Assembly: GCA_947378965.1 (NCBI GenBank)
Contig: CANCMG010000017.1
Coordinates: 1-54,967 of the forward strand
Direction: 5' to 3'
Source: Alcaligenaceae bacterium
Lineage (GTDB): Bacteria; Pseudomonadota; Gammaproteobacteria; Burkholderiales; Burkholderiaceae_B
Length of the DNA stretch: 54,967 bases
A model generated the notes under the pieces. That model saw only the letters and a list, made by a program, of their open reading frames with translations. It did no database searches and was not told the DNA's origin. Positions within the stretch are counted from its first letter, which is position 1; each line of letters begins with the position of its first letter. A program made the translations under genes and the position numbers. This document shows positions 1-17,836 of this stretch, piece by piece.

Positions 1-3000
1 GTTTCAGTCCAGGGCACGGGGCTGGGCGAGCGCGCATTGAGTGCTGGTGCCTGCCAGCCATCAACGGTGGCGCCGCTTAGGTAAGCCAGCCCCGAGCGCT
101 CACCGCCTAAGGCATCGCGCGAGGTGTGACAGGCCGAACAGTGCCCCAAACCGTTCACCAGATATTCGCCCCGCAACCACGCTGGCGAACGCTCAACTTC
201 GGTTTGTACGGGCTTGGCAGAAGGCCTGGGCGTTAAGTACAGCGCATTCCAAAAGGCCATCAGCGGACGCAAACTAAAAGGAAACGCTAGCTTAGTTTCA
301 GGGGTTGCCTGGCGCACCGGCTCTTGCGACATCAGCCATCCGTACAACGCTGCCAGATCTTCATCATTGATGCGGGTGAACGAGGTGTACGGAAACGCGG
401 GATACAAGTGATGCCCATCGCGCGAGATACCTTCACGCATGGCACGATTAAACGCTTGCTGCGACCAAAGACCAAGACCCGTTTGAGGATCTGGCGTTAA
501 GTTGGTGCTATACACCGTGCCGAAGGGAGTTTGAATCCCTAAGCCGCCAGCATTTGGTTTACCTTGTGCACTGGTGTGACAGGTGACACAGTTACCCAAG
601 GCCGCTAATTCACGACCGCGGTCAAGCGTGGCGGCTGAGTAGGTCGCGATCGGTTGGGTCACTGGAGCCAGCACAGTGCGCTGCCCGAACAGCGACCACG
701 TCGCACCAAGCAGCGTGGTGCCGAGTGCTGCCGTCAACGCAGCGGCACGCAACCACCAGGCACGCGGTCGCGGCCAGCGTGCGTCGGCGCGATCTGTCTG
801 TTGACGTGCAGGGCCTGCTAGCCGTAGGTCACTTGTTTGTGATGCCACCTGAAACTTGTCGGAGGCGTGCGCCACCAATTGAGGCTTACCAGAAGCGTGC
901 GTGGCTGAGTCGCCCTGATACATCAAAGGATTCAAAGCCGCGCGCACAACCTCAGGCGTAAAAGGAGGTTGCCTGAAACGCACGCCCGTTGCATCGAAAA
1001 TTGCATTCGCAATCGCAGCCGTGCCGGGCACCGAAGCTGACTCGCCCGCCCCAAGTGCGGGCTCATTGTGCCGAGGCATCTGCGTGACTTCGATCACAGG
1101 CACTTGCCTGAAACTCAAAATCGGATACGAACCCCATTCGCGGGTGGCGACGGTATTACGCTCACGTTCGGTTGGCACCTGTTCAAGCATGGCACGACTA
1201 GTGGTTTGCACCACGTTGCCATGGATTTGGTGTTCAACACCGGCGGGATTAATGGTTAAGCCAGCATCGTGACCGACCACCACCCGTTTAACATGCACTT
1301 CACCCGTGCGCTTGTTGACCTCAACATCGGCGATCCAAGCGGCCCACGCAGCTCCAAATCCAGGCCACTTACTGTGAACGTAGCGTGCCCAAGCGATGCC
1401 TTGTCCGTGCAAAATATCGCCCTCTGCGCCCTGCTGCTGCGGCTGCTCATGCATTTGCCAACCAGCCTTGGCTGCGGTCGCTTGCAATAATTCTCGCGCA
1501 CGCGGGTCATCGAGATAACGCAATCTGAAAGTCAGAGGATCGACCCCAGCCGCAGTCGCCAACTCATCGATATAAGATTCGTGGGCAAACGAGTTGGGCA
1601 TCGCTGACACGCCACGCAACCACGAGGCGCGCAAAATGGGCGGCATATCATTGACTGTCACGCGCAAATTTTGCAACGTATAAGGCGGACGCGCTGTGCG
1701 ATCACCCATCTCATACGCTTGCGCGTTGGGTTCAAGCGTACGCGTGAGTAACAGCGCTAGCGTGGGTGCGCCGTTTGAAGGGTAAGAGGTTGAAAAATCG
1801 TAGGCTGCAATCGAGCCGTCTGCGTGTAACCCACCGCGCACCTCCATCCATTGCGCCGCGCCTTTGGGCTCCCACAGGTTTTCTTGCTCGCGCGTCAGTT
1901 GCACACGCACCGGCGCACCGACTGCACGTGCCAGTAACACCGCATCAGCCGCCACATCATCGGCACCGTTGCGCCCATAGCACCCCGAGGCCTCCATGCG
2001 TACGATTTCAATCGCAGTGTCTTGCAACGCGGTGAGGCGCGCTAAGTCTGCACGCAATACATGAGGATTTTGCGTGCCCGCCCAAACGGTTAACACAAAA
2101 GGATCGGTCGGATCGGTTTTAAATTCGGCCACGGCACACGAGGGGCCAATCGACGCGTGCATCTGATAAGGCCAGATGTAAGTACGTGGCATCGATTGCG
2201 CGGCCTGCGCAAGCGCCTGATCCACATCGCCTTCGTCAACCAGTTGACGCGGCGTTGCTGGATTAGCACGCAACGCTTGTTCGACGTTTGACAGGTCAGG
2301 CAAACCGGCCCAGGGTTTCCAGTGAACGCGCAGTGTATTAGCAGCGAGTTCGGCAAATTCTTCACGCTCGGCCACCACACCAACAAAATCCCGAATCACA
2401 ACAACCGCGCGAATGCCCGGGATATGCGCAATCGAGGTCTCGTCAACAGACTCGAGCAAATTACCAATAAAGTCACCGTGATCGGCACCCGCATAGGGTG
2501 GACGAATCACTCGACCGTGCAACATGCCGGGCAGCCGCATGTCGTGCACGAATACCAACTCGCCCGTCGCTTTAGCCGGGATATCCACACGCGGCACGGA
2601 CTGTCCGACTGTGCGGTAGGTCGCAGGATCTTTGACCGGCGTGGCCAGTTCAAGTTTAAGGTGGATGCGCTGGCCCACGAGTAACGCCGCATAGCTCGCT
2701 GAGGTGGCGGGCACCCCCCGAGCTGCGGCCAGCTCAAGCAAATATTGTCGTGCCTGAGCCGCCGCTGCCCGCAGGGGTGCAGCGTGGTTTTGGATGGAGC
2801 CACTCGCAATGGTGGGCCCTTGATTGGGTGCCGTGCCGGTGTCGCCCAAGATCACATCAACCTGCTCAAGCGCAACGTCAAGCTCTTCGGCCACAATTTG
2901 AGCAAACGCGGTTTTGATTCCGGTGCCAAGGTCCACATGGCCATGCAAAGCAGTCACCCGGCCGTCTGCCCAAAGCGCGAGCAAAATTTCGACGCCTTCA

Positions 3001-3134
3001 GCAGGGTTGCCCGGTACAGCCGCCGGCTGACCAGGCGCAGGGGGATTAGCAGGTGGCGGATCACGCACCGCCAACAACACGCCAGTTGCGTTTAAAAAAT
3101 CTGCGCGAGTTCGCAAGGGCCTAGGGTGCGTCAT
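1..3134 (-). CDS. nicB: NicB-like molybdopterin subunit fused to c-type cytochrome domains (C-terminus outside window)
   Basis: Large subunit of a xanthine dehydrogenase-family hydroxylase, probably converting nicotinate or a related N-heterocycle to its 6-hydroxy form at the cytoplasmic membrane or periplasmic face. I translated the whole frame by hand: it is open from the ATG at 3134 to the left edge, about 1044 codons without a stop. The N-terminal half has the HGHVDLGTGIKT pattern; the GAGESASVPG motif places the probable catalytic Glu near residue 698. A hydrophobic segment lies around residues 791-815, followed by two haem motifs, CVTCH (849-853) and CSACH (999-1003). Pseudomonas NicB is a fusion of about 1180 residues with three haems, so a third CxxCH should lie outside the window. 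Its start overlaps the end of the [2Fe-2S] gene by 14 nt. The family is clear; the substrate is inferred from neighbours. Confidence 0.88.
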   Translation of the reverse strand, partial: MTHPRPLRTRADFLNATGVLLAVRDPPPANPPAPGQPAAVPGNPAEGVEILLALWADGRVTALHGHVDLGTGIKTAFAQIVAEELDVALEQVDVILGDTGTAPNQGPTIASGSIQNHAAPLRAAAAQARQYLLELAAARGVPATSASYAALLVGQRIHLKLELATPVKDPATYRTVGQSVPRVDIPAKATGELVFVHDMRLPGMLHGRVIRPPYAGADHGDFIGNLLESVDETSIAHIPGIRAVVVIRDFVGVVAEREEFAELAANTLRVHWKPWAGLPDLSNVEQALRANPATPRQLVDEGDVDQALAQAAQSMPRTYIWPYQMHASIGPSCAVAEFKTDPTDPFVLTVWAGTQNPHVLRADLARLTALQDTAIEIVRMEASGCYGRNGADDVAADAVLLARAVGAPVRVQLTREQENLWEPKGAAQWMEVRGGLHADGSIAAYDFSTSYPSNGAPTLALLLTRTLEPNAQAYEMGDRTARPPYTLQNLRVTVNDMPPILRASWLRGVSAMPNSFAHESYIDELATAAGVDPLTFRLRYLDDPRARELLQATAAKAGWQMHEQPQQQGAEGDILHGQGIAWARYVHSKWPGFGAAWAAWIADVEVNKRTGEVHVKRVVVGHDAGLTINPAGVEHQIHGNVVQTTSRAMLEQVPTERERNTVATREWGSYPILSFRQVPVIEVTQMPRHNEPALGAGESASVPGTAAIANAIFDATGVRFRQPPFTPEVVRAALNPLMYQGDSATHASGKPQLVAHASDKFQVASQTSDLRLAGPARQQTDRADARWPRPRAWWLRAAALTAALGTTLLGATWSLFGQRTVLAPVTQPIATYSAATLDRGRELAALGNCVTCHTSAQGKPNAGGLGIQTPFGTVYSTNLTPDPQTGLGLWSQQAFNRAMREGISRDGHHLYPAFPYTSFTRINDEDLAALYGWLMSQEPVRQATPETKLAFPFSLRPLMAFWNALYLTPRPSAKPVQTEVERSPAWLRGEYLVNGLGHCSACHTSRDALGGERSGLAYLSGATVDGWQAPALNARSPSPVPWTE

Positions 3135-3627
3135 GACTGACCCTATGTGGGGCTTGCATCAATACTGCCGCACGTTTAACTGCCCGAATGATTTCGACGT
3201 GAGTGCCGCAGCGACAAAAATTACCCGATAAGGCGCTACGAATTTGGTCTTCTGTTGGATCAGGTGTATGCGTCAGTAAAGACACTGTCATCACAATCAT
3301 TCCGTTCAGACAATACCCGCACTGCGCGGCTTGCTCGTCAATAAATGCCTGTTGGGCTGGATGCAACTGCGCGCCTGAGCCCAACCCTTCAAGCGTTGTA
3401 ATGGCGCGGCCTTGTACGCCTTGTGCGGGTACCACGCACGAGCGCGCAGCCATCCCATCAATGAGCACGGTGCAAGCGCCGCACTGACCCAATCCGCAAC
3501 CATATTTTGGCCCATTCAACGCAAGGTCATTACGCAACACCTGCATGAGCGACACCTCTGCCGACAGCTGTAGATCATGCTGCTGGCTATTGACAAGTAA
3601 GGTGCAAGGTGACGAAGTGTGCATCAA
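3121..3627 (-). CDS. nicA: NicA-like [2Fe-2S] subunit of the molybdenum hydroxylase
   Basis: Small iron-sulfur subunit (168 aa) that carries electrons from the molybdenum cofactor to the cytochrome domains of its partner. The plant-type ferredoxin cluster is ligated by Cys44, Cys49, Cys52 and Cys64; the second cluster by Cys103, Cys106, Cys138 and Cys140 in QCGYC and FCRC. Length and cysteine pattern match CoxS/NicA-type subunits. Translation begins at one of two adjacent Met codons five bases after the transporter ATPase gene stops, and its end overlaps the large-subunit start, so the two are probably translationally coupled. No FAD subunit gene is present, which fits the two-subunit NicAB type that donates to cytochrome c rather than NAD. 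Confidence 0.92.
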   Translation of the reverse strand: MMHTSSPCTLLVNSQQHDLQLSAEVSLMQVLRNDLALNGPKYGCGLGQCGACTVLIDGMAARSCVVPAQGVQGRAITTLEGLGSGAQLHPAQQAFIDEQAAQCGYCLNGMIVMTVSLLTHTPDPTEDQIRSALSGNFCRCGTHVEIIRAVKRAAVLMQAPHRVSHDAP

Positions 3628-3632
3628 AGACC

Positions 3633-5303
3633 TTAGACGCTTAAATAGGTTTGACGGACATGCTCATTGGCATCGAGCTCGGCCATCGTGCCACTGAAAC
3701 GGATGTGCCCTTTTTCAAGCACATAGGCGCGATCGCACACCAAGCGTGCAAAGTGCAGATTTTGTTCAGAGAGCAAAATACTGACCCCTTGCTTTTTCAA
3801 GGCCAAAATCATCTGAACCATCTGCTCAACAATCACAGGTGCGACACCTTCAGAGGGCTCATCTAGCAGCACCAAATAGGGGTTACCCATCAAGCTGCGC
3901 GCCACGGTCAGCATTTGCTGTTCACCACCACTCATCTGCCCACCCGGGCGCTTGGGCATCTCGCCAAGGTTCGGAAACAGCGTGAACAGTTGCTGCACAG
4001 TCCAGGTCGGCGCCGCCGAGCCATCAGGCCACATGCGAGGCCTTTGCCGGCCGACTTCGAGGTTCTCTAAGACGGTTAAGTCGGTAAAAATTCGCCGATC
4101 CTCAGGTACATAACCTAACCCACTTGCCGCAATTCGATGGGCCGCATCTTTTGAAATATCTCGCCCCATAAAGTGCATGTCACCCGTGCGCTTTTCAAGT
4201 AACCCCATCAACGCTTTCATGGTAGTTGACTTACCCGCCCCATTGCGCCCCATTAAGGCCACGACTTCGCCGCGTTTCACCTCAAGGTTCACGTCGTACA
4301 AAATTTGAGCGGCGCCGTACCAGGCCTTTAAGCTCTGCACAGATAACAGCGGTTCTGTCTGAGCGAGCGAACTCAGGTCTTTGTGAACATTTGCAACGAT
4401 TCTGGCCTCGAACACCTCTTTTTCAGGGTTCACCCCTTGAGTGTTGAGCAAACTTTTGTTTGACTCCTCCGACATCTGATGGTTGAACAACCCGTTGTTC
4501 GATTCCTTCGATATCTGGCCCTTGGCTGTCGCCACTGAGACTGCCGTCTTGTCTTCAAACGTCGCGCCAGAGCCAAAGTACACCTCTTGCACCTTGGCAT
4601 CTTTGCGAATGTCGTCAGCCTTGCCTTGCGCAATCAGTCTTCCGCGCGCCAAGACAATCATGCGATCGGCGTGAGCAAACACCACATCCATACTGTGCTC
4701 AGTAAACAGCACAGCGATCTGTTGCTCAAGCACTAATTTTTTTGTCAACGTCATTAACGCATTGCGCTCTTTGGGTGCCATACCTGCGGTGGGCTCATCC
4801 ATCAATAACAGTCGTGGACGATTGGCCAACGCAATCGCTAGCTCGACACGTTTCACATCGCTATAGGCCAACGCGCTACAGGGGCGGTCTGCTTGCGACG
4901 CCATCCCAACCTGCTCAAGCAACTCAAGCGCTCGGGTTCGTTCGTGTGCGCGCGCAGCTTTGAAAAACGAAAACACTTGCCCCGCATGCGAGAGCAAAGC
5001 CATCTGCACGTTTTCAATCACCGTTAACGACGCAAACGTTTCAGCGATTTGAAACGTGCGGCCTACCCCTAAACGCCAGATCTCTCGTGGCGCAAGGCCA
5101 ACTAACTCTTGCCCAGCAAACTGGATCGACCCGCGGTCAGCCTGCAATTGACCATTGACCATATTGAAGGTGGTGGATTTGCCGGCGCCATTCGGGCCAA
5201 TCAGGGCCAACAACTCACCCGCTTCGAGCTCAAACGAAATCCCATCAACGGCCTTCACCCCGCCAAAGGACTTACCTAAGTCTTTCACTATTAACAGGCT
5301 CAT
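3633..5303 (-). CDS. Fused LivG-LivF ABC transporter ATPase
   Basis: Two branched-chain amino acid type (HAAT) ATPases in one 556-aa chain, energising uptake through the fused permease encoded just upstream. The start is the Met of MSLLIVKDLGKSFGG at 5303, which overlaps the permease stop as ATGA; the frame extends further upstream but inside the permease gene. The LivG half has Walker A GPNGAGKST at residues 36-44 and Walker B LLLMDEP, but its signature reads AYSDVKR rather than a canonical LSGGQ or AYGxQR. The LivF half has Walker A GRNGAGKST, signature MSGGEQQ and LVLLDEP. Between them is a hydrophilic linker of about 70 residues with a duplicated 13-residue block. The substrate is unknown; the operon suggests an N-heterocyclic carboxylate. 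Confidence 0.9.
   Translation of the reverse strand: MSLLIVKDLGKSFGGVKAVDGISFELEAGELLALIGPNGAGKSTTFNMVNGQLQADRGSIQFAGQELVGLAPREIWRLGVGRTFQIAETFASLTVIENVQMALLSHAGQVFSFFKAARAHERTRALELLEQVGMASQADRPCSALAYSDVKRVELAIALANRPRLLLMDEPTAGMAPKERNALMTLTKKLVLEQQIAVLFTEHSMDVVFAHADRMIVLARGRLIAQGKADDIRKDAKVQEVYFGSGATFEDKTAVSVATAKGQISKESNNGLFNHQMSEESNKSLLNTQGVNPEKEVFEARIVANVHKDLSSLAQTEPLLSVQSLKAWYGAAQILYDVNLEVKRGEVVALMGRNGAGKSTTMKALMGLLEKRTGDMHFMGRDISKDAAHRIAASGLGYVPEDRRIFTDLTVLENLEVGRQRPRMWPDGSAAPTWTVQQLFTLFPNLGEMPKRPGGQMSGGEQQMLTVARSLMGNPYLVLLDEPSEGVAPVIVEQMVQMILALKKQGVSILLSEQNLHFARLVCDRAYVLEKGHIRFSGTMAELDANEHVRQTYLSV
4440..4517 (-). repeat. 39-bp x2 diverged tandem duplication in the LivG-LivF linker
   Basis: Two abutting 39-bp copies (4479-4517 then 4440-4478 in coding direction) differ at 10 of 39 positions. 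They encode QISKESNNGLFNH and QMSEESNKSLLNT. The length is a multiple of three, so the fusion frame is preserved. Confidence 0.8.
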
Positions 5304-7192
5304 GTTTGCCCCTTGCCTGTCACACGCAAACTGATGCGACGTACGGAGCCTGCAATCCCTTCGGGAAACAACAACACCAGTAACAAGATAATCCCACCTA
5401 GCATCGCGCGCCAATATTCAGTGTTGCGTGCGATGACGTCATGCAACCAGGTGAAACTCACGGCGCCCACGATCGGGCCTGCAAAAGTCTGTATGCCGCC
5501 GAGCAAGACCATCACCAAGCCATCCACCGAACGACTGACATGTAACGTCTCGGGCGAGATACTGCCCTTAGAAAAAGCGAAAAGCGCGCCGGCCACACCT
5601 GCAAAGACACCCGCGATCACAAAGGCCACCCACTGCACCCGTTTAACATTGATGCCAATGGCATCGGCACGCATCGGCGAATCTCGACCCGCGCGCATGG
5701 CGTAACCCAAAGGCGCGTACAACATACGCCGCAATAACCAAACGCTTAGGACCACGCATGAGAGTGTCAAAAAGTAATAATTTTTTTTGTCAGCCAGCCA
5801 TGTCGCTGGCCACACGCCCGTCAACCCATTGCTGCCACCGGTGAAGGCATCCCACTGAAACACCACGGCCCAAGTGATTTGCGCAAAGGCCAAGGTCAAC
5901 ATTGCCAGATAGACGCCCGATAAGCGCACACTAAACCAGCCAAATACCAACGCCCCCATGCCAGCGACAAGCGGTGCCAGCAGCAGCGCAAGCTCCATGG
6001 GCAACCCAAGCGCTTTAAACAAAAGTGCGGCACCATACGCACCCAAACCAAAATACGCCGCATGACCAAACGAATGCATGCCGGCGGGCCCCATGATGAA
6101 GTGCAAACTTGTTGCAAACAACACTGCCACCAACAAATCGATACTCAGCACTGTGAAATAAGGCGATGACGAGGTGAGCCACGGTAGCAGCACCAACAAG
6201 GCCACAGCCACTAACTGTAAGGTGGTCGCCGTGCGTGTGGGTGCGGCCAACGGTGCTTCGATGTGGCCGGCATGGCGCGAGAGCGGCTGCGGTCTACCCA
6301 ACAACCCCCAGGGGCGCAGCACCAACACCACAGCCATCACTAAAAACTCAACCACCAAAGTCAGCTTTGAAAAAGAGATTGCTGTACCAAAAATATTGAC
6401 GACACCTAACCAAATGCAAATGGCTTTTAATTCAGCTATCAACAGAGCAGCCACAAAAGCGCCGGGGATCGAGCCCATCCCGCCCACCACTACCACCACA
6501 AACGCCGCGCCAATCGTGTTGAGATCCATCTCAAGGCTTGCTGGTTCGCGCGGCAGTTGCAAGGCACCACCTAAACCCGCCAACAGCGCACCTAAGGCAA
6601 AGATGCTGGTAAACAACCACGCCTGATTGACCCCGAGCGCAGCAACCATCTCGCGATCTTGTGTGGCAGCGCGAATAAACGTGCCCCAGCGGGTACGGGT
6701 CAACAACAGCCAAAGCAAGCCCAACAGTACGGGCCCGACAACAATTAAAAATAAATCGTACGCGGGGAAACTCCGCCCTAAGATTTGCACCGCCCCCTTC
6801 AAACCGGGTGCACGTGGCCCGAGTAGCTCTTCAGGACCCCACAGCCACAACACAGCATCCTTAAACACTAAGACCAGGGCAAAGGTGGCCAACAATTGAA
6901 ACAGTTCGGGCGCACGGTAAATACGGCGCATCAGGGTGACTTCGACCACGGCTCCAAGCACGCCGACGAGCAGCGCTGCACACAGTACGGCTGGCCAAAA
7001 ACCGATCGTGTCTGCAAAGCGCGTCACTAGGGTGTAGGCGAGATAAATACCCACCATAAAAAACGAACCGTGAGCAAAGTTCACGATTCGCGTCACACCA
7101 AAAATGAGCGACAGCCCGGCTGAGACCAAAAAGAGCGATGAGGCCCCAGCCAGACCGTTGAGCAACTGAACAACAAAACCAGATAAATCCAT
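5300..7192 (-). CDS. Fused LivH-LivM ABC transporter permease
   Basis: Inner-membrane permease of a HAAT/LIV-type importer, about 630 aa. Residues about 1-290 are LivH-like (SAGLSLIFGVTRIVNFAHGS near the N-terminus; ALGVNQAWLF...GLGGAL near the EAA-type loop) and about 310-625 are LivM-like (FGHAAYFGLGAYGAA; AIGINVKRVQWVAFVIAGVFAGVAGALFA split over that loop). Many hydrophobic segments fill both halves. I chose the ATG at 7192; an in-frame TTG at 7210 would add six residues, and no strong ribosome binding site decides between them. It ends in a 4-nt overlap with the ATPase gene. Each LIV component is usually a separate gene; here both the permease pair and the ATPase pair are fused. Confidence 0.9.
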   Translation of the reverse strand: MDLSGFVVQLLNGLAGASSLFLVSAGLSLIFGVTRIVNFAHGSFFMVGIYLAYTLVTRFADTIGFWPAVLCAALLVGVLGAVVEVTLMRRIYRAPELFQLLATFALVLVFKDAVLWLWGPEELLGPRAPGLKGAVQILGRSFPAYDLFLIVVGPVLLGLLWLLLTRTRWGTFIRAATQDREMVAALGVNQAWLFTSIFALGALLAGLGGALQLPREPASLEMDLNTIGAAFVVVVVGGMGSIPGAFVAALLIAELKAICIWLGVVNIFGTAISFSKLTLVVEFLVMAVVLVLRPWGLLGRPQPLSRHAGHIEAPLAAPTRTATTLQLVAVALLVLLPWLTSSSPYFTVLSIDLLVAVLFATSLHFIMGPAGMHSFGHAAYFGLGAYGAALLFKALGLPMELALLLAPLVAGMGALVFGWFSVRLSGVYLAMLTLAFAQITWAVVFQWDAFTGGSNGLTGVWPATWLADKKNYYFLTLSCVVLSVWLLRRMLYAPLGYAMRAGRDSPMRADAIGINVKRVQWVAFVIAGVFAGVAGALFAFSKGSISPETLHVSRSVDGLVMVLLGGIQTFAGPIVGAVSFTWLHDVIARNTEYWRAMLGGIILLLVLLFPEGIAGSVRRISLRVTGKGQT

Positions 7193-7256
7193 CAATCGCC
7201 CATTCAACAATCAACGCTTAACGCTTGGCAGGCCACGGTACATTTAAAGGCGCCCA

Positions 7257-8471
7257 TTATTGCGCGGGACGCAATTTTTTAACCTCTTCGGCAGAAGGCA
7301 AGAATTTAGCGCCATCTAAGAAGCGAAAATCAACCATCACACCTTTGCCACCTTCGTTTTTAGTGCGGCCAACAAAGCTACCCATCGTCGACTGATGATC
7401 TTCGGGTCGGTAGGTGATGGGGCCGAACGGCGTCATCAGGTTCAACCCTTTAAAGGCCTCGACCAGCTTTTCAGAATCTGTGCTTTGAGCCTTTTTGATC
7501 CCTGCAGCCAGCGACATGATGGAGCTGTAACCCACCACTGAACCCAGGCGTGGATAGTCTTTGAACTTGTCTTGATAGGCTTTAAGAAAAGCGGCATGCT
7601 CTGGCGTTTTGATGCCATACCAGGGGTAACCGGTCACCAACCAGCCATCTGGGCTTTCATCTTTAAGTGGGTCAAGGTACTCGGGCTCGCCGGTTAGTAA
7701 GCTCACGACCTCACGGCCCTTAAATAAACCACGGGTGTTACCTTCGCGAACGAACTTCGACAGGTCTGCGCCGAACAACACGTTAAAAATCGCATCAGGC
7801 TTAGCATCAGCAAGCGCCTGCACCACACTGCCTGCATCGAGCTTACCTAAGGGAGGCGCCTGCTCGGCCACAAACTCAATATCGGGTTGAGCTGCCTTCA
7901 TGAGTTCTTTGAAACTAGCGATCGCCGATTGACCATATTCATAATTAGGATAAACGATCGCCCAGCGTTTTTTCTTCATCGCAACAGCGTCGGGCACAAG
8001 CATCGCCACCTGCATGTAGGTTGAGGTACGCAGACGGAACGTATAGCGATTGCCGTTTTGCCAGACAATCTTATCGGTCAAAGGCTCACTGGCTAAAAAG
8101 AAAAATTTCTTTTGCTTTGAAAAATCAGTCAGTGCCAAGCCAATATGCGACAAGAAAGACCCTGTTAACACGTCAACCTGATCACGCGATACCAGCTCTT
8201 CGGCCACCCGCACGGCGTCACCTGGGTTGGCGTTATCGTCGCGCGTAATGAGTTCAACTTTTTTACCATTCAAACCGCCGCCCGCATTGATCTGCTCAAT
8301 CGCGAGTTCCATGCCTTTTTTGTAGGGCTCAAGAAAAGCAGGCTGTGCCTTATAACTATTGATTTCGCCGATTTTGATGACGCCTTGCGCCATCAGGGCT
8401 GACGAGGCGCTCAGCAGCGTGACTGCTGCGATGCTTAGCCTTGCAAAGATACTGAGTCGGTGCTGTTTCAT
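7257..8471 (-). CDS. LIV-type ABC transporter periplasmic substrate-binding protein
   Basis: Periplasmic binding protein of 404 aa with a Sec signal peptide (basic MKQHRLSIFARLS, hydrophobic core, likely cleavage near ALMAQG). The mature part starts with IKIGEINSYKAQPAFLEPYKKGMELA and contains AIEQINAGGGLNGKKVEL, typical of the LivJ/urea-amide family (Peripla_BP_6). A good ribosome binding site, AGGAGAG, lies five bases before the ATG. It is followed by the permease after about 64 bases and sits in the catabolic operon, so it probably captures the heterocyclic acid or a related amide rather than a branched-chain amino acid. The ligand cannot be read from sequence. Confidence 0.9.
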   Translation of the reverse strand: MKQHRLSIFARLSIAAVTLLSASSALMAQGVIKIGEINSYKAQPAFLEPYKKGMELAIEQINAGGGLNGKKVELITRDDNANPGDAVRVAEELVSRDQVDVLTGSFLSHIGLALTDFSKQKKFFFLASEPLTDKIVWQNGNRYTFRLRTSTYMQVAMLVPDAVAMKKKRWAIVYPNYEYGQSAIASFKELMKAAQPDIEFVAEQAPPLGKLDAGSVVQALADAKPDAIFNVLFGADLSKFVREGNTRGLFKGREVVSLLTGEPEYLDPLKDESPDGWLVTGYPWYGIKTPEHAAFLKAYQDKFKDYPRLGSVVGYSSIMSLAAGIKKAQSTDSEKLVEAFKGLNLMTPFGPITYRPEDHQSTMGSFVGRTKNEGGKGVMVDFRFLDGAKFLPSAEEVKKLRPAQ

Positions 8472-8530
8472 CGTACTCTCCTGTTTATCGGGCGCATGCC
8501 CTGACTGTCAATGTTTCAACGTTTCAATAT

Positions 8531-9118
8531 TTAATTCAAACCATCTTTACCAATCATATTCTGATGCTGCAACCCACCCACTCGAGGGTTAGGGCGTCCG
8601 CTATCGGTGACAGCGACGCACACCACGATTTCGTTGGCGCGCGGCGCATCGGTGACACGCGCTTCGATCGCATCAAAATGACTTCGGACATAGGCTGCGT
8701 CTTTGTGTCCGAGCGGCACATCAATCGTGGCCCCCATTGCACCCATTTTTTTACTCGAAGGCACAAGCGCCGCACCCTTTTCAACCGCAACGCGCAGCGG
8801 CGCCCCTAATTTTGGATGCAAAATCGCAGCGGCGTGCTCAAGCTCACCCGCCTCGCCAACAATGGCTGCCTTGCCGTAGCTTTGGGCCTCGCCGGGCTGG
8901 ATCCCAAGAGCCTGCACGCAACGCTGCCCAAGTAAGGCACCAAGCTCTTGCCCCACAGTCATCAGTGCATCTAAATCTGCAACATACCGCCCGGCAAAGG
9001 GATTTTCGATGACCGCCATGGCCAGCGCACGCCGCGTGGGGGGCGACACAGGTTGACCGTTTTCAACCCACACCTCGTCGACTTGTACGACGATCCTACG
9101 AATTTTTGCTTGCATCAT
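8531..9118 (-). CDS. DUF1185 ('amino acid synthesis') family protein
   Basis: About 195 aa, beginning MMQAKIRRIVVQVDEVWVENG. The sequence matches the family annotated as amino acid synthesis protein (DUF1185), known from Bordetella and rhizobia; despite the name no reaction is established to my knowledge. Visible conserved stretches are NPFAGRY near residue 40, GKAAIVGEAGELEHAAAILHP in the middle, and MGATIDVPLGHKDAAYVRSHFD near residue 145. The track-length frame starts upstream at 9163 inside the preceding gene; the GAGGTG just before the twin ATG at 9118/9115 favours the shorter form. It lies between the UPF0280 and binding protein genes in the nicotinate-type operon, so a role in processing a pathway intermediate is plausible but unproven. 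Confidence 0.82.
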   Translation of the reverse strand: MMQAKIRRIVVQVDEVWVENGQPVSPPTRRALAMAVIENPFAGRYVADLDALMTVGQELGALLGQRCVQALGIQPGEAQSYGKAAIVGEAGELEHAAAILHPKLGAPLRVAVEKGAALVPSSKKMGAMGATIDVPLGHKDAAYVRSHFDAIEARVTDAPRANEIVVCVAVTDSGRPNPRVGGLQHQNMIGKDGLN

Positions 9119-9122
9119 CACC

Positions 9123-10007
9123 TCAGAACATACGCTGGATTCGGGTCGTTTCAGTACTGACAAACCACCCCTGACAACTTAAAACACAGGCACAGATTAA
9201 ACCGTTCTGCTTGAGCGTGTGCGCTTTTTTTAAGCCCGCTTCAAGCGCTTCGTGAATTTCATCTTGACTTAACTCTGGCACAGCAACCGTCACCAACTGC
9301 TGCCCTAAATCAGAATCATCTTTTAAGGCGTTAGCGGGCTCGCGCACAATACGCGCGTCAGTCACGTTAACCGCATTCGCAATCATCGTTGCTGCGGCGT
9401 CTGCCTGCGAGGCACTCGCCGCAAACACCGTCACGCTGTCGGCGATACCCAAAGAAAAACTGCGTCCGCGCCAACCACTGGTGGCGACGCCCGCGATGCC
9501 CATTCCATGCTCGACTTTAAACACAGCATCGGTTTGCACACCGGCAATGAGCTGCTGTTCATCCAAGCGCGCCACATCAGCAAAGAGCCCAATCGAAAAC
9601 GCAGTGTTTTCAGTGAGATGCAAAGCAATATCGCCACCGTTATTGATCCAGGCGCGCCTGATCCCCGGCGCTCGGTAACAGGCACTCAACTCTTGTGCGA
9701 CTGAACCGGCAACCGCAGCCATCGGCGTTAAAAACGCGTTTGCATCCGAGTCAATTAAACAGGCCTTGCACGCTTGCCACATCGACTTAGCAATCGGCCC
9801 TTTCAACCTACCCGCGCCGCGCACAGGTTGACGCAGTTCAGCCAACTCATCCACCAGCTCGGGCAAAATTTTGCCAAAGCGCTGCCAGGCCGTCTCATGC
9901 GCCTGGGCCACGCTGGCTGGGTCGCCTTCGGCGTAGGCAATGATATCGATCGGCCCATGCTGAAAATGGCGGCGTCCTTGCGACAGCTTATGCGATGTCG
10001 GCCCCAT
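9123..10007 (-). CDS. UPF0280 family protein (ApbE-like fold)
   Basis: About 294 aa from the ATG at 10007 (MGPTSHKLSQGRRHFQ); a longer frame to 10073 would overlap the preceding gene. The HGPIDIIAYAEG start region, the glycine-rich AWINNGGDIALHL, and GVATSGWRGRSFSLGIADSVTVFA are hallmarks of UPF0280, which belongs to the ApbE-like (FAD:protein FMN transferase-like) superfamily. It starts about five bases after the 6-hydroxynicotinate reductase-like gene stops. Function of the family is not established; adjacency to a probable Fe-S flavoprotein raises the possibility of flavin handling or covalent flavin attachment. That is inference only. Confidence 0.85.
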   Translation of the reverse strand: MGPTSHKLSQGRRHFQHGPIDIIAYAEGDPASVAQAHETAWQRFGKILPELVDELAELRQPVRGAGRLKGPIAKSMWQACKACLIDSDANAFLTPMAAVAGSVAQELSACYRAPGIRRAWINNGGDIALHLTENTAFSIGLFADVARLDEQQLIAGVQTDAVFKVEHGMGIAGVATSGWRGRSFSLGIADSVTVFAASASQADAAATMIANAVNVTDARIVREPANALKDDSDLGQQLVTVAVPELSQDEIHEALEAGLKKAHTLKQNGLICACVLSCQGWFVSTETTRIQRMF

Positions 10008-10012
10008 GTTCT

Positions 10013-11602
10013 TTAGCCTAGCTGAGGCGGCTGACCCAACGGCCAAGGATTTTGAGTGGGCTGCATCACCCACTTGCGCGCAGTGGGCGCACCATCGGTG
10101 TGCCAGGCACCATCGCGCAGCACCGCGTCAAGCGGTCGCACATACGCCATATGGCCGCCCAGCTTTTTAAAATCTTCTGCGCGCATACTGAATTCGAAAG
10201 GTGCGACGATCGCTGGGGTGGGCACGGTACCGAAGCTGTGATCAGGCATGCGCAGCACGTCCACCATCACAGTAATCCCACCACCGGGCCAGACGTACGC
10301 TGGCGCCCCACCACATGTCACATTCACCAAGGCTTGTTTAATCGCACGCGTGAGCAACACCGGATTGTCTGTCACACCGGCTCGCAGACTACCACCCGCA
10401 CCACCCAAGAACAGTACCGTGGTCAGTGAGGGCTCGCAGTTTTCGCCGATGCGATCGATGACTGTCTGGACCGCAGCCGGAATCTCTTGCTGCCTCGGAA
10501 TCAAATCCTCGTCGAGCACAAACCAGGCCGCGTGCTCACCCGTCGTCGAGGTCATCAGTAATCGCAAGCCAGGCCAGGCACGCTTAGTATCCCACTTTTC
10601 AATGATACTTAAGGGATCTGCAATATCAGTGCCACCCCAGCCAGTACCGGGGTTGGCCACTTGAAAATAGCGACCAGGGGTTGAGCGGCGACCCCGAATC
10701 GAAATCCCTGACGCGCGCATATTTAAACAGCAGCCCGCCTGATGCTCAGTCAAGACGCCGGTGATGTGATCATCAACGACCACGACCTCGTCGGCTAACT
10801 CAAAAAACTGTTGCGCAAAAATACCGATCGCAGCAGAGCCGCAACCGACTCGCATGCGCTGTTCGACCACGCCATTGACAATCGGCGCGCGCCCAGCCTG
10901 AATCACTAGATTGGCTCCGCCGTCGATATTCAACTCGGCCGCCTCTTTATTGCCCAGGGCCTGCATCATCTCCATGGTGACGCGACCCTCTTTTTTACTG
11001 CCTCCGGTCAAGTGATGCACGCCGCCCAAAGACAGCATTTGCGAACCGTACTCGGCGGTGGTGACGTGCCCCACGACCTCGCCCCGGCACAGCACGTTGG
11101 CTTGCTCCGGCCCAAGATAACGGTCTGTATCAATTTTGACTTTTAAACTGCAATAACTAAAGATGCCCTCAGTGACAACCGTCACCATATCAACACCGTC
11201 AATCTGCGAACCCACGATAAACGGCGCGGGCTTGTAATCTGGGTAGGTGGTGGATGACCCCACCCCAGTGATGAAAACATCGTTAGCATGCATCAAGTCG
11301 CCTGCCCAAACGCCTTCAGACGTACCAGGCGCAAAGGGCACTAACGCCGGCTCGGTTGCCTTCAAGGCACGATTCAGCACCAGCACTGGATCGACCCGAA
11401 TGAGCACGCCCTCGTGGTTGGCATAGCGGTCACAAGCACCACTGCGCCCCGCACTGATCTGGCACAAGACTGGGCACGCGTTACACTCGATTTTGGCACC
11501 GGCCACTGGGCGCACTGGCGTGGCAGGCGTGTCTGCATTGCCAGGGGCCGCTACCGCGGGCGCCCGCGCTGAAAGTCCGTCGGTTTTCGTGTGTTCAGTC
11601 AT
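10013..11602 (-). CDS. hnr: 6-hydroxynicotinate reductase-like Fe-S protein
   Basis: 529 aa. I recognise the family of Eubacterium barkeri 6-hydroxynicotinate reductase (Hnr), which reduces 6-hydroxynicotinate with ferredoxin to 1,4,5,6-tetrahydro-6-oxonicotinate. An Ala/Pro-rich tail of about 35 residues precedes a probable [4Fe-4S] site, Cys40-X2-Cys43-X3-Cys47-X9-Cys57. Other conserved-looking stretches are GVWAGDLMHANDVFITGVGSS, split by GVGSSTTYPDYKPAPF, then RVGCGSAAIGIFAQQFF, HQAGCC and FLGGAGGSLRAGV. It is the first gene of the leftward operon and is divergent from a ferredoxin-NADP reductase, a plausible source of its reducing power. No clear Shine-Dalgarno precedes the ATG at 11602. 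Family assignment is fairly confident; the exact substrate is inferred from the hydroxylase and enamidase genes beside it. Confidence 0.8.
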   Translation of the reverse strand: MTEHTKTDGLSARAPAVAAPGNADTPATPVRPVAGAKIECNACPVLCQISAGRSGACDRYANHEGVLIRVDPVLVLNRALKATEPALVPFAPGTSEGVWAGDLMHANDVFITGVGSSTTYPDYKPAPFIVGSQIDGVDMVTVVTEGIFSYCSLKVKIDTDRYLGPEQANVLCRGEVVGHVTTAEYGSQMLSLGGVHHLTGGSKKEGRVTMEMMQALGNKEAAELNIDGGANLVIQAGRAPIVNGVVEQRMRVGCGSAAIGIFAQQFFELADEVVVVDDHITGVLTEHQAGCCLNMRASGISIRGRRSTPGRYFQVANPGTGWGGTDIADPLSIIEKWDTKRAWPGLRLLMTSTTGEHAAWFVLDEDLIPRQQEIPAAVQTVIDRIGENCEPSLTTVLFLGGAGGSLRAGVTDNPVLLTRAIKQALVNVTCGGAPAYVWPGGGITVMVDVLRMPDHSFGTVPTPAIVAPFEFSMRAEDFKKLGGHMAYVRPLDAVLRDGAWHTDGAPTARKWVMQPTQNPWPLGQPPQLG

Positions 11603-11671
11603 GTAGAGTCGGGTAAGAAGCTTATCGCCTTTTAGTCGTTGCCTAAATTACACCACAGGGGTTAACATAAA

Positions 11672-11709
11672 TGTAGCATTTGCTACAATTTAGTGTTGCA
11701 TTCACTACA
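11672..11709. promoter_or_regulatory. Two tandem 16-bp operator-like palindromes in the divergent control region
   Basis: TGTAGCATTTGCTACA (11672-11687) has perfect 7-bp arms TGTAGCA/TGCTACA around TT. A second related copy, TGTTGCATTCACTACA (11694-11709), differs at three positions. Their starts are 22 bp apart, about two helical turns, so dimers would bind on the same face. They lie in the AT-rich 200-bp gap between the hnr operon and the fpr-tetR unit. A TetR-family regulator encoded two genes away is the natural candidate to bind them. A weak promoter for fpr (TTGCAT at 11696-11701, 17-bp spacer, TAATTT at 11719-11724) would overlap the second copy. Confidence 0.65.
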
Positions 11710-11802
11710 TTTAATGTTTAATTTAATGCATCCATGGCAAGCTCGCAATGTATTTGTTGAGCCTGCCCCCGACATAAAAAGATTTTGATACCTAAACCAA
11801 TC

Positions 11803-12576
11803 ATGAGCGCCTTCAACGAAGAAACCGTTTTATCCGTACACCACTGGACTGACCGCCTGTTTAGCTTCATCACTACCCGCGATCCGTCTTTACGCTTTAG
11901 CAACGGCCACTTCACAATGATCGGGCTGCGCATCAACGACAAGCCCTTGCTGCGCGCCTACAGCATCGTCAGCGCCAACTACGAAGAACACCTTGAGTTT
12001 TTAAGCATCAAAGTCGAAGACGGGCCTCTGACCTCAAAGCTGCAACACATCAAAGTGGGTGATTCAATTGTGGTAGGCCGCAAACCAACTGGCACGCTAC
12101 TGATCGATTATTTGTTGCCTGCCAAACGTTTATATATGTTCTCGTCGGGCACAGGCTTAGCGCCGTTTTTGAGCGTCATCCGCGACCCAGAAACCTACGA
12201 AAAATTTGAAGACGTGATTTTGGTCCATTCGGTGCGCGACGTCGCCGAACTCGCCTATCATGATTACCTGACTCAAGAACTCCCCAAGCACGAGTTTTTA
12301 GGTGAGATGGTGAGTAAACAGCTACGCTACTACCCGACCGTCACGCGCGAACAATACAAACAAATGGGTCGCATCACGACCTTGATTGAAAACGAAAAAC
12401 TGTTTAAAGATTTGGGTGTTCCAGCGCTTGATCGTGCGCAAGATCGCATTATGATTTGTGGCAGCCCGGGTTTGTTGCGCGATTTGAAAACCATGCTTGA
12501 GCAGCGCGGCTTTAACGAAGGCAACACCACCAAACCAGGTGACTACGTGATCGAAAGGGCCTTTGTCGAACAATGA
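11803..12576 (+). CDS. fpr: Ferredoxin--NADP(+) reductase
   Basis: 257 aa flavoprotein that exchanges electrons between NADPH and ferredoxin or flavodoxin. The FAD-binding RAYSIVSANY (near residue 52) and the NADP-binding FSSGTGLAPFLSVIRDP (near 115) with ILVHSVRD are diagnostic of bacterial subclass FNR; the C-terminus ends in the usual ...ERAFVEQ-type tail. I start at ATG 11803 (MSAFNEE); a TTG at 11785 in frame is possible, and neither has an obvious ribosome binding site. It is divergent from the Hnr-like gene and overlaps the TetR gene by ATGA. The context suggests supply of reduced ferredoxin for ring reduction, but no ferredoxin gene is in the window. Confidence 0.92.
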   Translation: MSAFNEETVLSVHHWTDRLFSFITTRDPSLRFSNGHFTMIGLRINDKPLLRAYSIVSANYEEHLEFLSIKVEDGPLTSKLQHIKVGDSIVVGRKPTGTLLIDYLLPAKRLYMFSSGTGLAPFLSVIRDPETYEKFEDVILVHSVRDVAELAYHDYLTQELPKHEFLGEMVSKQLRYYPTVTREQYKQMGRITTLIENEKLFKDLGVPALDRAQDRIMICGSPGLLRDLKTMLEQRGFNEGNTTKPGDYVIERAFVEQ

Positions 12577-13238
12577 GCACTCGCATGTCAGCCCCTCTCA
12601 AAGCGCCGCGTAAAACCGGGGTACGAGAGCGTGCGGCTGAAACTACGCGCGAAAACATTTTGCGCGCAGCGATCAAAATCTTTGCCAAACATGGTCTCGA
12701 TGGTGGCAGCATCGATCAAATCTCTAAGGCGGCCAATTCGCACGACCGCATGATTTATTACTACTTTGGTAATAAAGAGGGCCTGTTTGTGGCGGCCCTT
12801 GAAGAGATCTATCGACGTTTTAACGATGCCGAAGCGGCTCTTAAACTTGACACCGCCCAACCACTCGTAGCGCTGAAGCAAGTCGTACAGTTCATTTTGC
12901 AGTACTACAAAAAAAACCCAGAATTTGTCACCTTGTTGAATAGCGAAAATCTGCACGGCGGTAAGCATATCGCCAAATCGAGCAAAGCCCGCGAATACTC
13001 GTCACCCGCCATTGGGGTCGTGGATCAAGTGTTGGTCTGTGGTGTCGAACAAGGTGTATTTCGAAAAGATCTGTCGTCACGCGACTTGTACATGATGATT
13101 GCTGCTTTGGGTTATTTTTACCAATCAAATCGTTTTACGTTGTCTGCCTTTTTAGGCGAAAATCTAGAAGCGCCCTCGACCTTTAAGCAATGGGAAGAGT
13201 TTGTGGTGGATGCGGTACAACGAACCGTCGTGCTGTAG
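12573..13238 (+). CDS. TetR-family transcriptional regulator
   Basis: 221 aa. An N-terminal helix-turn-helix region (residues about 22-70: ENILRAAIKIFAKHGLDGGS, then SHDRMIYYYFGNKEGLFVAALE) is typical of TetR; the C-terminal TetR_C-like domain would bind the inducer. It overlaps the FNR gene by 4 nt (ATGA), so both are co-expressed. By position it is the candidate regulator of the divergent heterocycle-degradation genes through the paired palindromes at 11672-11709. Pseudomonas nicotinate genes are also controlled by a TetR protein (NicS), but I cannot claim orthology from sequence alone. Confidence 0.9.
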   Translation: MSTRMSAPLKAPRKTGVRERAAETTRENILRAAIKIFAKHGLDGGSIDQISKAANSHDRMIYYYFGNKEGLFVAALEEIYRRFNDAEAALKLDTAQPLVALKQVVQFILQYYKKNPEFVTLLNSENLHGGKHIAKSSKAREYSSPAIGVVDQVLVCGVEQGVFRKDLSSRDLYMMIAALGYFYQSNRFTLSAFLGENLEAPSTFKQWEEFVVDAVQRTVVL

Positions 13239-13289
13239 CCTTAGCAAGGGTGGCCGTCATTAAGCGCGGGTAATATGGCTATCTTCACG

Positions 13290-13381
13290 TAACGGCAAGA
13301 GCACGAAGCGGGCGATTGAATCTTCGCGAAGATCGTAACAGTAAGAGCACGAAGCAGGCGCTTGAATCTTCGCGAAGATCA
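13290..13381. repeat. Tandem pair of 46-bp elements with a perfect 14-bp palindrome
   Basis: Copies 13290-13335 and 13336-13381 abut and differ at five positions. Each ends in the palindrome ATCTTCGCGAAGAT (13320-13333 and 13366-13379) followed by C; a degenerate fragment of a third copy (ATCTTCACGTAAC) begins at 13281. The pair fills most of the gap between the TetR gene and the enamidase-like gene. It may be a REP-like element or a paired regulator site. Confidence 0.75.
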
Positions 13382-13454
13382 CAAGTTTAGGTAGAACAAT
13401 ACTCAGCACGCCGCCTCAAGCTAACAAATTAATCGATGCAGTCAGGAGAACAAC

Positions 13455-14648
13455 ATGGCAGAAGTCGTTGCAAATGAAAAATCAGGCAAAGTCGTCATCA
13501 AAAATATCGGCTTGCTGTTGTCAGGCGATCTAGACCAGCCGATTCTGTCTGCGGATACGATTGTGATCAACGACGGGTTGATCGTTGCGGTGGGTAAAGA
13601 AAAAGACTGCGACATCGCGCACGCTAAAACAATCATCGACGCGCACAACACATGCGTTGCGCCTGGGTTAATTGATAGCCATGTGCATCCTGTATTCGGC
13701 GATTGGACCCCGCGCCAAAATCAAATTGGCTGGATCGAGTCGACACTCAACGGAGGTGTCACGACGATGATTTCGGCTGGCGAGGTGCACCTACCCGGCC
13801 GCCCTAAGGATATCGTCGGGCTCAAAGCACTTGCCATCACCGCTCAGCGCGCCTTTGATAACTTTCGCCCAGGAGGCGTCAAAGTCTTAGCGGGTGCACC
13901 GGTCATCGAACAAGGCATGGTCGAACAAGATTTTAAAGAGCTAGCTGAGGCCGGCGTCAAATTGCTAGGTGAAGTCGGCCTGGGCTCCGTCAAGGCCGGC
14001 GATGAGGCCAAAAAGATGGTGGCGTGGGCACGCAAATACGGGATTCAAAGCACCATCCATACCGGTGGGCCCTCGATCCCAGGCTCGGGTCTGATCGATA
14101 AAGATGTGGTGCTCGAGGCCGATGCCGATATCATCGGTCATATCAACGGTGGCCACACGTCGCTGTCTGAAGCCCATGTTTGCGAGCTATGCGAAAAATC
14201 CTCGCGCGGCATCGAGATCGTGCACAACGGCAACGAAAAAATTGCCATTGCCGCCGCGCAGGCAGCGATGCAACTCAAGTGCCCACACCGTGTGATTCTT
14301 GGTACCGACGGGCCCGCGGGCTCGGGCGTGCAGCCCTTGGGTATCTTGCGCATGATCGCCTTGCTTTCAAGTCTGGGAAACATCCCCCCTGAACTGGTAT
14401 TTTGTTTTGCCACCGGCAATACCGCGCGCATGCGTGATTTAAACTGTGGCTTGATTGAACCTGGTCGGGCAGCCGACTTGGTCTTTATGGATCGCGCGCA
14501 ACACACCGCGGGGCGCGACCTACTCGACAGCGTCAAGCTTGGTGATATACCTGGTATTGGGATGGTGATGATTGATGGGCTCGTGCGTTGCGGGCGCAGT
14601 CGTAACACGCCGCCTGCAACCATGATCCCGAGTGTGGTTCATCACTGA
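13455..14648 (+). CDS. ena: Enamidase-like amidohydrolase
   Basis: 397 aa, amidohydrolase superfamily, closest in my recognition to Eubacterium barkeri enamidase, which opens 1,4,5,6-tetrahydro-6-oxonicotinate to 2-formylglutarate and ammonia. The N-terminal composite domain (IVINDGLIVAVG) leads into the metal-binding LIDSHVHP (His76, His78). Further candidate metal ligands are in TIHTGG (about 199), GHINGGHTSLSE (about 223-230) and GTDGPAGSGVQP (Asp about 285). The C-terminal ATGNTARMRDL...GLIEPGRAADLVFMD is typical of the superfamily. AGGAG six bases before the ATG gives a firm start. Its presence together with Hnr and Nic-type hydroxylase genes is the strongest argument for the reductive nicotinate route. 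Substrate is inferred. Confidence 0.82.
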   Translation: MAEVVANEKSGKVVIKNIGLLLSGDLDQPILSADTIVINDGLIVAVGKEKDCDIAHAKTIIDAHNTCVAPGLIDSHVHPVFGDWTPRQNQIGWIESTLNGGVTTMISAGEVHLPGRPKDIVGLKALAITAQRAFDNFRPGGVKVLAGAPVIEQGMVEQDFKELAEAGVKLLGEVGLGSVKAGDEAKKMVAWARKYGIQSTIHTGGPSIPGSGLIDKDVVLEADADIIGHINGGHTSLSEAHVCELCEKSSRGIEIVHNGNEKIAIAAAQAAMQLKCPHRVILGTDGPAGSGVQPLGILRMIALLSSLGNIPPELVFCFATGNTARMRDLNCGLIEPGRAADLVFMDRAQHTAGRDLLDSVKLGDIPGIGMVMIDGLVRCGRSRNTPPATMIPSVVHH

Positions 14649-14752: not shown

Positions 14753-14818
14753 CTCTAGCGCTACGTTTGCTGAGACTGGCAACTGTTTTACACTCAGCAC
14801 GATAAAAAAGGAAAATTG

Positions 14819-16144
14819 ATGAACATCGCCTCTCGTTTGTGTGCCGTTCTGTTTACCGCGCTTGCGTCAATCACTGTCAATGCCTCAGCACAAACGGTGA
14901 CTGTCATCACTTCTTTTCCTAAAGAGCTCACTGCGGCATACAAAACCGCCTTCGAAAAAGCCCATCCAGGCGTGACACTCGAGATCCTAAATAAAAATAC
15001 CGTCGCGGGCATGGCTTATCTACGCGAACTACCCGTCGGTCAGCGACCTGAAGTTTTCTGGGTCAGTGCGCCTGATGCCTTTGAGGTGCTCGCGCGCGAA
15101 AAACTGCTCGCCTCAGTTTCCGAGCTTAAAAATCCTAAAGTCCCTGAAAAGATCGGCTCTTTCCCGATTAATGATCCGCAAGGGCTCTATCTAGGGCAAG
15201 CGCTCGCCGGTTACGGCATCATGTACAACACGCGCTACCTCAAGGCCAACAAGCTGAGTCCTCCGAGCGAATGGCAAGATCTACTCGCCCCCGCATGGTT
15301 TAACCATGTGGGCATCACCGCTCCGTCACGCTCGGGCACCATGCACCTGACTGTTGAAACGATCCTACAAAGCAATGGCTGGAACGCAGGCTGGAACACA
15401 CTGCTACGGATGTCAGGCAACAGCGCTGCAGTCACTGAGCGCTCGTTTGGTGTGCCTGATGGCGTCAGTAACGGCCAGTTTGGCGCCGGGCCCGTGATTG
15501 ATTTTTTTGGTTTGTCTGCAAAGTACTCGGGCTTTCCGGTCGAGTTTGTGTACCCCGTTGAAACCGCAATTGTGCCTGCCAATATTGCACTTGTAGCAGG
15601 TGCAAAAAATCCTGAGGCTGGTAAAACATTTATTACCTTCACCCTGAGTCAAGCGGGACAAGAAATCTTATTGCAGCCTAAAGTGTCGCGCCTACCTGTA
15701 CTCCCTTACCGCGAACTTGCGAGTAAAGTGCCCGCCAACTATCCAGACCCCAACGCCATTGCTGCGCGCAGTACCGTCAAATTTGACACCGAACTTTCGT
15801 CAGCGCGTTACGAAGTTGTACTCAAACTTTTTGATCAGACCATCACATTTAGACTCAAAGAACTGCAAGCCGCCACCAAAGCGATCTTTGAAGCCGAGCG
15901 CAAACTCAAAGGCGTCACGGCTGGGCCTCAAGCCGAACTATTGAGTCAGGCGCGAACGCTTGCCTACACGCCGCTCGTAGATGACAAACAAATCAGTGAT
16001 GTCGCCTTTTTAAAGATCTTTTCTGGCAATAAAAAGGATCCCGAAGTGAGCAAAGCCATCAGTCAATTTGAAAGCGACTGGAACGCCCGCTCAAAAGAAC
16101 GCTACGAGCGCGCGCTTGAGCTCGCGAAAAAGGCTGCACAGTAA
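14819..16144 (+). CDS. ABC transporter substrate-binding protein (iron/phosphonate-type, SBP_bac_6/8-like)
   Basis: 441-aa periplasmic binding protein with a Sec signal peptide (MNIASRLCAVLFTALASITV, cleavage near NASAQT). The mature N-terminus VTVITSFPKELTAAYKTAFEKAHP and the block PEVFWVSAPDAFEVLAREKLL fit FbpA/AfuA-like proteins. It is roughly 100 residues longer than a typical 340-aa member; the extra part, from about residue 335, looks helical and charged (RLKELQAATKAIFEAERKLK and beyond). AAGGAAA precedes the ATG; a TTG three bases upstream is in frame but unlikely. Its stop overlaps the permease start by one base (TAATG). The ligand is not determinable. Confidence 0.85.
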   Translation: MNIASRLCAVLFTALASITVNASAQTVTVITSFPKELTAAYKTAFEKAHPGVTLEILNKNTVAGMAYLRELPVGQRPEVFWVSAPDAFEVLAREKLLASVSELKNPKVPEKIGSFPINDPQGLYLGQALAGYGIMYNTRYLKANKLSPPSEWQDLLAPAWFNHVGITAPSRSGTMHLTVETILQSNGWNAGWNTLLRMSGNSAAVTERSFGVPDGVSNGQFGAGPVIDFFGLSAKYSGFPVEFVYPVETAIVPANIALVAGAKNPEAGKTFITFTLSQAGQEILLQPKVSRLPVLPYRELASKVPANYPDPNAIAARSTVKFDTELSSARYEVVLKLFDQTITFRLKELQAATKAIFEAERKLKGVTAGPQAELLSQARTLAYTPLVDDKQISDVAFLKIFSGNKKDPEVSKAISQFESDWNARSKERYERALELAKKAAQ

Positions 16145-17829: not shown

Positions 17830-17836
17830 GTTCATC

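Follow-up and report, generated by a model that had tools for sequence, protein, structure and literature searches.

The nic cluster of Pseudomonas putida hydroxylates nicotinate by means of NicAB and then proceeds with the oxygenases NicC and NicX. Eubacterium barkeri is said to ferment nicotinate, reportedly in work by Alhapel from 2006, and the clostridial nicotinate hydroxylase is a selenium and flavin enzyme. A further cluster was given in 2012, in the available part of PMC3511419, for Bradyrhizobiaceae strain SG-6C, Azorhizobium caulinodans, Bradyrhizobium japonicum and Rhodopseudomonas palustris; strain SG-6C mineralises nicotinate, and its 6-hydroxynicotinate reductase (Hnr) is 42% identical to that of E. 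barkeri. The same route is compared with others in PMC9304392, beside which PMC7356986 and PMC10331938 are cited as prior literature, and PMC6403243 deals with nicotinamide degradation by an Alcaligenes, as far as the available parts of these sources go. The window analysed here is the whole 54,967-nucleotide contig CANCMG010000017.1 (C17) of assembly GCA_947378965.1, from an Alcaligenaceae betaproteobacterium near Zwartia. Its first 14.6 kb (3-14648) hold two divergent gene sets that, with a probability of roughly 0.87 as judged from sequence, make up a reductive nicotinate catabolic operon.

Clusters of this kind are already known, and many relatives have the same one. Its gene content is that of the A. 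caulinodans ORS571 and SG-6C cluster in the available part of PMC3511419; the host, however, is here betaproteobacterial. A sequence-only reading of this DNA had implied novelty for the combination of genes, which does not hold since the 2012 report already gives the cluster in Bradyrhizobiaceae and in the aerobic Azorhizobium. The two unnamed proteins of that cluster, in the part of the report available, would correspond to UPF0280 and PF06684, a fit by gene content and not by alignment of the loci. New here are the co-occurrence of UPF0280 with Hnr, the association of PF06684 with enamidase, Hnr operons that lack enamidase, and a conserved operator-like pair. A literature search that left most subscription journals outside yielded no recognised account of this operon in betaproteobacteria.

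The gene cluster and its predicted pathway

Read along the minus strand, the order is hnr, UPF0280, PF06684, solute-binding protein, fused permeases, fused ATPases, 2Fe-2S subunit and molybdopterin/haem subunit; the plus strand reads ferredoxin-NADP reductase (FNR), TetR and enamidase. The gene types named in the sequence-only reading (NicAB-like hydroxylase, importer, Hnr-like reductase, FNR, TetR and enamidase-like amidohydrolase) were all found at 1-14648, and its betaproteobacterial host was borne out by kinship to Zwartia hollandica, Zwartia being classed in the Alcaligenaceae, Burkholderiales. It did not list two genes of the module, PF06684 'AA_synth' (8531-9163, minus strand) and UPF0280 (9123-10073, minus strand). 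Its proposal of reductive nicotinate degradation explains the locus far better than any other reading, given a clear enamidase, an Hnr homologue, a haem hydroxylase, an operon found in many Burkholderiales and a nicotinamidase-like gene in relatives.

The enamidase (13455-14648, plus strand) is the firmest point for a nicotinate pathway. Its predicted product matches E. barkeri enamidase (PDB 2VUN) at phmmer E 1.1e-111, with 182 of 380 ungapped positions identical (48%), and the motifs HVH, GEVGLG, HTGG, HINGG and (T/N)D, which presumably hold the metal-binding residues, line up with 2VUN without gaps. The enamidase alignment excludes rows L203, L210 and L092, the latter two owing to stop codons in the stretch. 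Adjoining the enamidase of Zwartia hollandica (L024:5336-7987) are nadC and a fused ribose-1,5-bisphosphokinase/thymidine-phosphorylase-like gene, with frames of the same clusters in L039.

Both the molybdopterin and the 2Fe-2S subunit of a hydroxylase are found in the cluster, with nicotinate as the substrate predicted from homology. The nicA-like subunit (3121-3627, minus strand) has the Pfam domains Fer2_2 and Fer2, and the nicB-like large subunit (3-3134, minus strand) has MoCoBD_2, MoCoBD_1 and Cytochrom_C, its 3' end being cut by the contig edge. Two CXXCH haem motifs lie in the part of NicB within the window; full-length NicB has three in five relatives (four sister genomes and one Comamonadaceae plasmid), as does NicB of Pseudomonas putida. 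The cut could suggest that the module is detached or decayed and no longer functions in this genome; however, contig C7 of the same genome overlaps the window edge exactly over 149 bp at its start and continues with an open frame of 232 residues (G000:C7:1-696) that matches the last 233 residues of a sister protein, so that the truncation looks like an assembly break. The other reading frames are uninterrupted and the operator pair is still present, and decay is accordingly a very improbable explanation.

The locus shares with the P. putida nic cluster the predicted NicAB hydroxylation step but differs in having no NicC/NicX-type oxygenase among the module genes, as the sequence-only reading had stated and the family assignments agree; the rest of the genome was not searched. 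It shares with the E. barkeri fermentation the predicted chemistry of Hnr and enamidase, but differs in its haem-containing two-subunit hydroxylase and in the lack of 2-hydroxymethylglutarate or methyleneglutarate genes among its annotated neighbours.

Homology and gene context together support hydroxylation, reduction and the opening of the ring by hydrolysis. In the proposed sequence the importer would bring in nicotinate, and NicAB would convert it to 6-hydroxynicotinate, with its haems relaying the electrons to the respiratory chain. Hnr with its constant partner UPF0280 would then form 1,4,5,6-tetrahydro-6-oxonicotinate, for which the FNR-like protein (11785-12576, plus strand), the presumed electron supply, would provide reduced ferredoxin or flavodoxin. 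From strong homology, enamidase is predicted to hydrolyse the lactam and enamine to 2-formylglutarate and ammonia. PF06684 might act at the enamidase step or just after it, as its context faintly hints.

Conservation was followed in the best 80 of at least 593 relatives, by their titles betaproteobacteria except for one titled only uncultured bacterium; these loci are related, and the counts are not independent events. Among the 48 loci with about 10 kb on both sides (the full-flank set), UPF0280, PF06684 and the permease occur in all 48, NicA and the ATPase in 47, enamidase and TetR in 46, NicB in 42, the solute-binding protein in 38 and FNR in 35. The grouping is not chance, because UPF0280, PF06684 and the permease are present in 48 of 48 and enamidase in 46 of 48. 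Clusters of recurrent open reading frames, which probably include shadow frames, served solely for choosing candidates. The arrangement of the genes is not constant: Paraburkholderia encodes its enamidase on the same strand as hnr, and neither an FNR nor a matching solute-binding protein was found in its locus. Just upstream of nicA, 34 of the 80 loci (26 of the full-flank 48) have a nicotinamidase-like gene, which points to nicotinamide and nicotinate. It follows the importer ATPase genes in 33 of those 34, the ATPase match of the other (L093) being distant. These genes are 70-100% identical to the Polaromonas copy, the one tested, which scores over the curated cut-off.

Hnr, UPF0280 and operons lacking enamidase

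The hnr gene (10013-11602, minus strand) is assigned through annotated homologues; Cys40, Cys43, Cys47 and Cys57 of its product are invariant in alignment A2, which comprises 48 of the 80 loci and the window. The 26 plasmid homologues of Hnr are 58-74% identical to it, and 17 of them are annotated as 6-hydroxynicotinate reductase. Of 101 genomes searched, 31 (this one among them) gave an Hnr match, which is short or weak in G008 and G065. Hnr itself matches no family in Pfam or NCBIfam, and no PDB sequence came out of a profile search with a value better than E 0.2. In G116 (L149, L150) the Hnr match is split across two overlapping frames, a frameshift or sequencing error. An annotated ring-hydroxylating dioxygenase alpha subunit lies within the Hnr cluster of Sulfitobacter (L018:16058-17125) and of Sagittula (L021:15565-16635).

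The UPF0280 gene adjoins hnr and scores 353 bits to NF003322 against a cut-off of 290; the family is, we take it, COG2122 and ApbE-like. Among 299 Pseudomonadota genomes Hnr occurs in 21 and UPF0280 in the identical 21, which span 9 of 154 genera and are kin, so that they do not count as independent events. In 79 of the 80 loci UPF0280 lies 3' of hnr on the same strand, no more than 528 bases away; in the exception (L027) the contig ends 145 bases past hnr. COG2122 is needed jointly with another protein, DUF39, for homocysteine synthesis, in the available part of PMC5764234; the requirement for a partner is alike, but the partner of UPF0280 here would be Hnr. DUF39 had no match in 150 Pseudomonadota genomes. 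The identical distribution, the adjacency and the COG2122/DUF39 precedent make it most likely that UPF0280 serves Hnr as a partner or as a maturation factor.

Several points weigh against the nicotinate reading. No enamidase was detected in 10 of the 21 Hnr genomes (threshold E <= 1e-40; up to six candidates per genome were scored), and Hnr alone is therefore no proof of the same substrate everywhere. Hnr is a putative 6-hydroxynicotinate reductase, assigned by way of annotated homologues; its structural model is poor (mean pLDDT 63.7, with residues 1-127 below 50), and Foldseek found no solved fold for it at E <= 0.001. The FNR-like protein scores under its family cut-off (PRK10926, 152 bits against 390) and is missing in 13 of the 48 full-flank relatives, as is the solute-binding protein in 10. 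Around the divergent region, promoter-like sites are no more frequent than chance predicts (3 found against 2.9 expected). No genes for subsequent steps were recognised next to the operon, nor could a full glutarate route be established for this genome.

With the same chemistry, the operon might instead degrade another N-heterocycle, such as a substituted nicotinate or a different hydroxypyridine carboxylate. Hnr has other partners elsewhere, including a Rieske-type oxygenase in Sulfitobacter and Sagittula; several Hnr genomes have hydantoinase/oxoprolinase homologues with no enamidase found; and the hydroxylase is from a broad family and reaches no equivalog cut-off. This explanation is nevertheless unlikely in view of the high identity of the enamidase to 2VUN and of the nicotinamidase-like gene in the operons of relatives.

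The operons without detected enamidase may form a second class. Hydantoinase/oxoprolinase homologues lie within 20 kb of hnr in 6 of the 10 such genomes (L216, L217, L218, L219, L221, L223), and in none of five hnr regions examined from enamidase genomes (L224-L227, L229); a nicotinamidase-like gene occurs within the same 20 kb in 6 of the 10. The hydantoinase/oxoprolinase is possibly a replacement ring-opening enzyme.

PF06684 and its association with enamidase

The PF06684 protein, with a likely start near 9118, is assigned by Pfam and by a solved relative (2qtp, E 1.2e-90). There is one copy in this genome and two in 71 of 93 stretches examined, some of the others being cut by contig ends; alignment A3 comprises 25 of 144 PF06684 rows and the window. 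PF06684 was found in 41 of the 299 Pseudomonadota genomes. These include 20 of the 21 with Hnr and every one of the 13 in which an enamidase homologue occurs. Two of those 13 (G335, G385) lack Hnr, and in both the PF06684 gene is immediately 5' of the amidohydrolase, as it is in 5 of 9 plasmids with distant enamidase homologues. Those five records (L020, L121, L123, L124, L125) have no hnr match; in three, a gene for a monooxygenase or a ring-hydroxylating dioxygenase lies close by.

The association holds in one direction only. No enamidase match at E <= 1e-40 was found in 28 of the 41 PF06684 genomes, made up of 19 of the 21 that lack Hnr and of 9 among the 10 that have Hnr and no detected enamidase, and PF06684 must therefore also function without enamidase. 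Its model shows the known family fold with no informative structural neighbour by Foldseek. A role as cyclic amide hydrolase was considered and rejected: beyond its own family nothing matched at E <= 0.001, and such a hydrolase came only at rank 41 with E 0.084. The amino-acid label of the family derives partly from branched-chain-type transporter neighbours, according to the available part of PMC2954203. The closest solved relative of the window protein is SPO0826, and its transporter neighbours may well be an importer like that of the window.

A joint reading that divides the two families by partner is tentative, and on balance we doubt it as a whole. In it Hnr would have in UPF0280 an obligate subunit or a maturation factor, a second use of the role that COG2122 plays with DUF39. 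PF06684 would be a protein of cyclic enamide or lactam catabolism, for example a tautomerase or a 2-formylglutarate decarboxylase, that works with enamidase-type amidohydrolases and other ring-opening enzymes and owes its amino-acid label to a branched-chain-type transporter neighbour. Hydantoinase/oxoprolinase would replace enamidase in the second class of Hnr operons. It is given lower weight because the PF06684-enamidase link is not reciprocal.

Regulation, import and later steps

Between the divergent gene sets lies a pair of 16-bp palindromes, TGTAG-N6-CTACA, spaced 22 bp apart (11672-11709), the one at 11672 exact and that at 11694 with one mismatch. The pattern was picked from the window, which is outside the 80 loci, and expectation was taken from random stretches of the same, related loci. 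A site with at most one mismatch is present upstream of hnr in 73 of the 80 against 2.06 expected and is exact in 36; the 22-bp-spaced pair is found in 58 against 1.74 expected, and other spacings from 17 to 28 occur in 0-2 loci each, except for 27 with 10. The pair is a probable TetR operator in a divergent promoter, for which the adjacent regulator with a TetR_C_29 domain by Pfam (12573-13238, plus strand) would be the obvious candidate binder. The regulator would repress both divergent units at this pair, the site being conserved as observed, until a pathway ligand appears.

An importer is a feature of the Azorhizobium/Bradyrhizobiaceae-type cluster and is present here at 3633-8471 on the minus strand. 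It consists of two fused branched-chain-type ATP-binding cassette (ABC) ATPases (3633-5414), UrtD/UrtE-like by Pfam and NCBIfam-type family searches; two fused permeases of the same type (5300-7210; BPD_transp_2 in two stretches); and a solute-binding protein (7257-8471; Peripla_BP_6) presumed to belong to a nicotinate importer. The ATPases also form one fused frame in three sister genomes (L104, L106, L109); Zwartia hollandica (L102) has a separate ATPase frame of 243 residues, and the Comamonadaceae plasmid has two ATPase genes. Phosphonate-type ABC genes at 14816-18952 were rejected as part of the module, their solute-binding or permease gene being present in none of the 48 full-flank relatives and in 1 of the 80 overall. 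Past the operon, one sister genome has the housekeeping genes rlmE-like, ftsH, folP and glmM.

Candidates for later steps were sought in the genome. A glutarate route through a family III CoA-transferase was set aside, the best in the genome scoring 522 bits against a cut-off of 750 and the acyl-CoA dehydrogenase beside it not being closest to glutaryl-CoA dehydrogenase. The second-best CoA-transferase is similar to CaiB/BaiF and succinate-hydroxymethylglutarate CoA-transferases of solved structure, which gives no more than a hint; the gene tested beside it is a nucleoside permease. A methylmalonate-semialdehyde dehydrogenase over cut-off is encoded elsewhere in the genome, and nothing ties it to the operon.

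It thus appears that the reductive, hydrolytic route of nicotinate degradation, known from an anaerobe and some alphaproteobacteria, would also be present in many Burkholderiales, where a largely fixed operon, together with a probable operator, allows it to be recognised. The uncharacterised families UPF0280 and PF06684 are tied to testable steps of one likely pathway, and it is in these two families and in the enamidase-free variants that the remaining interest of the locus lies.

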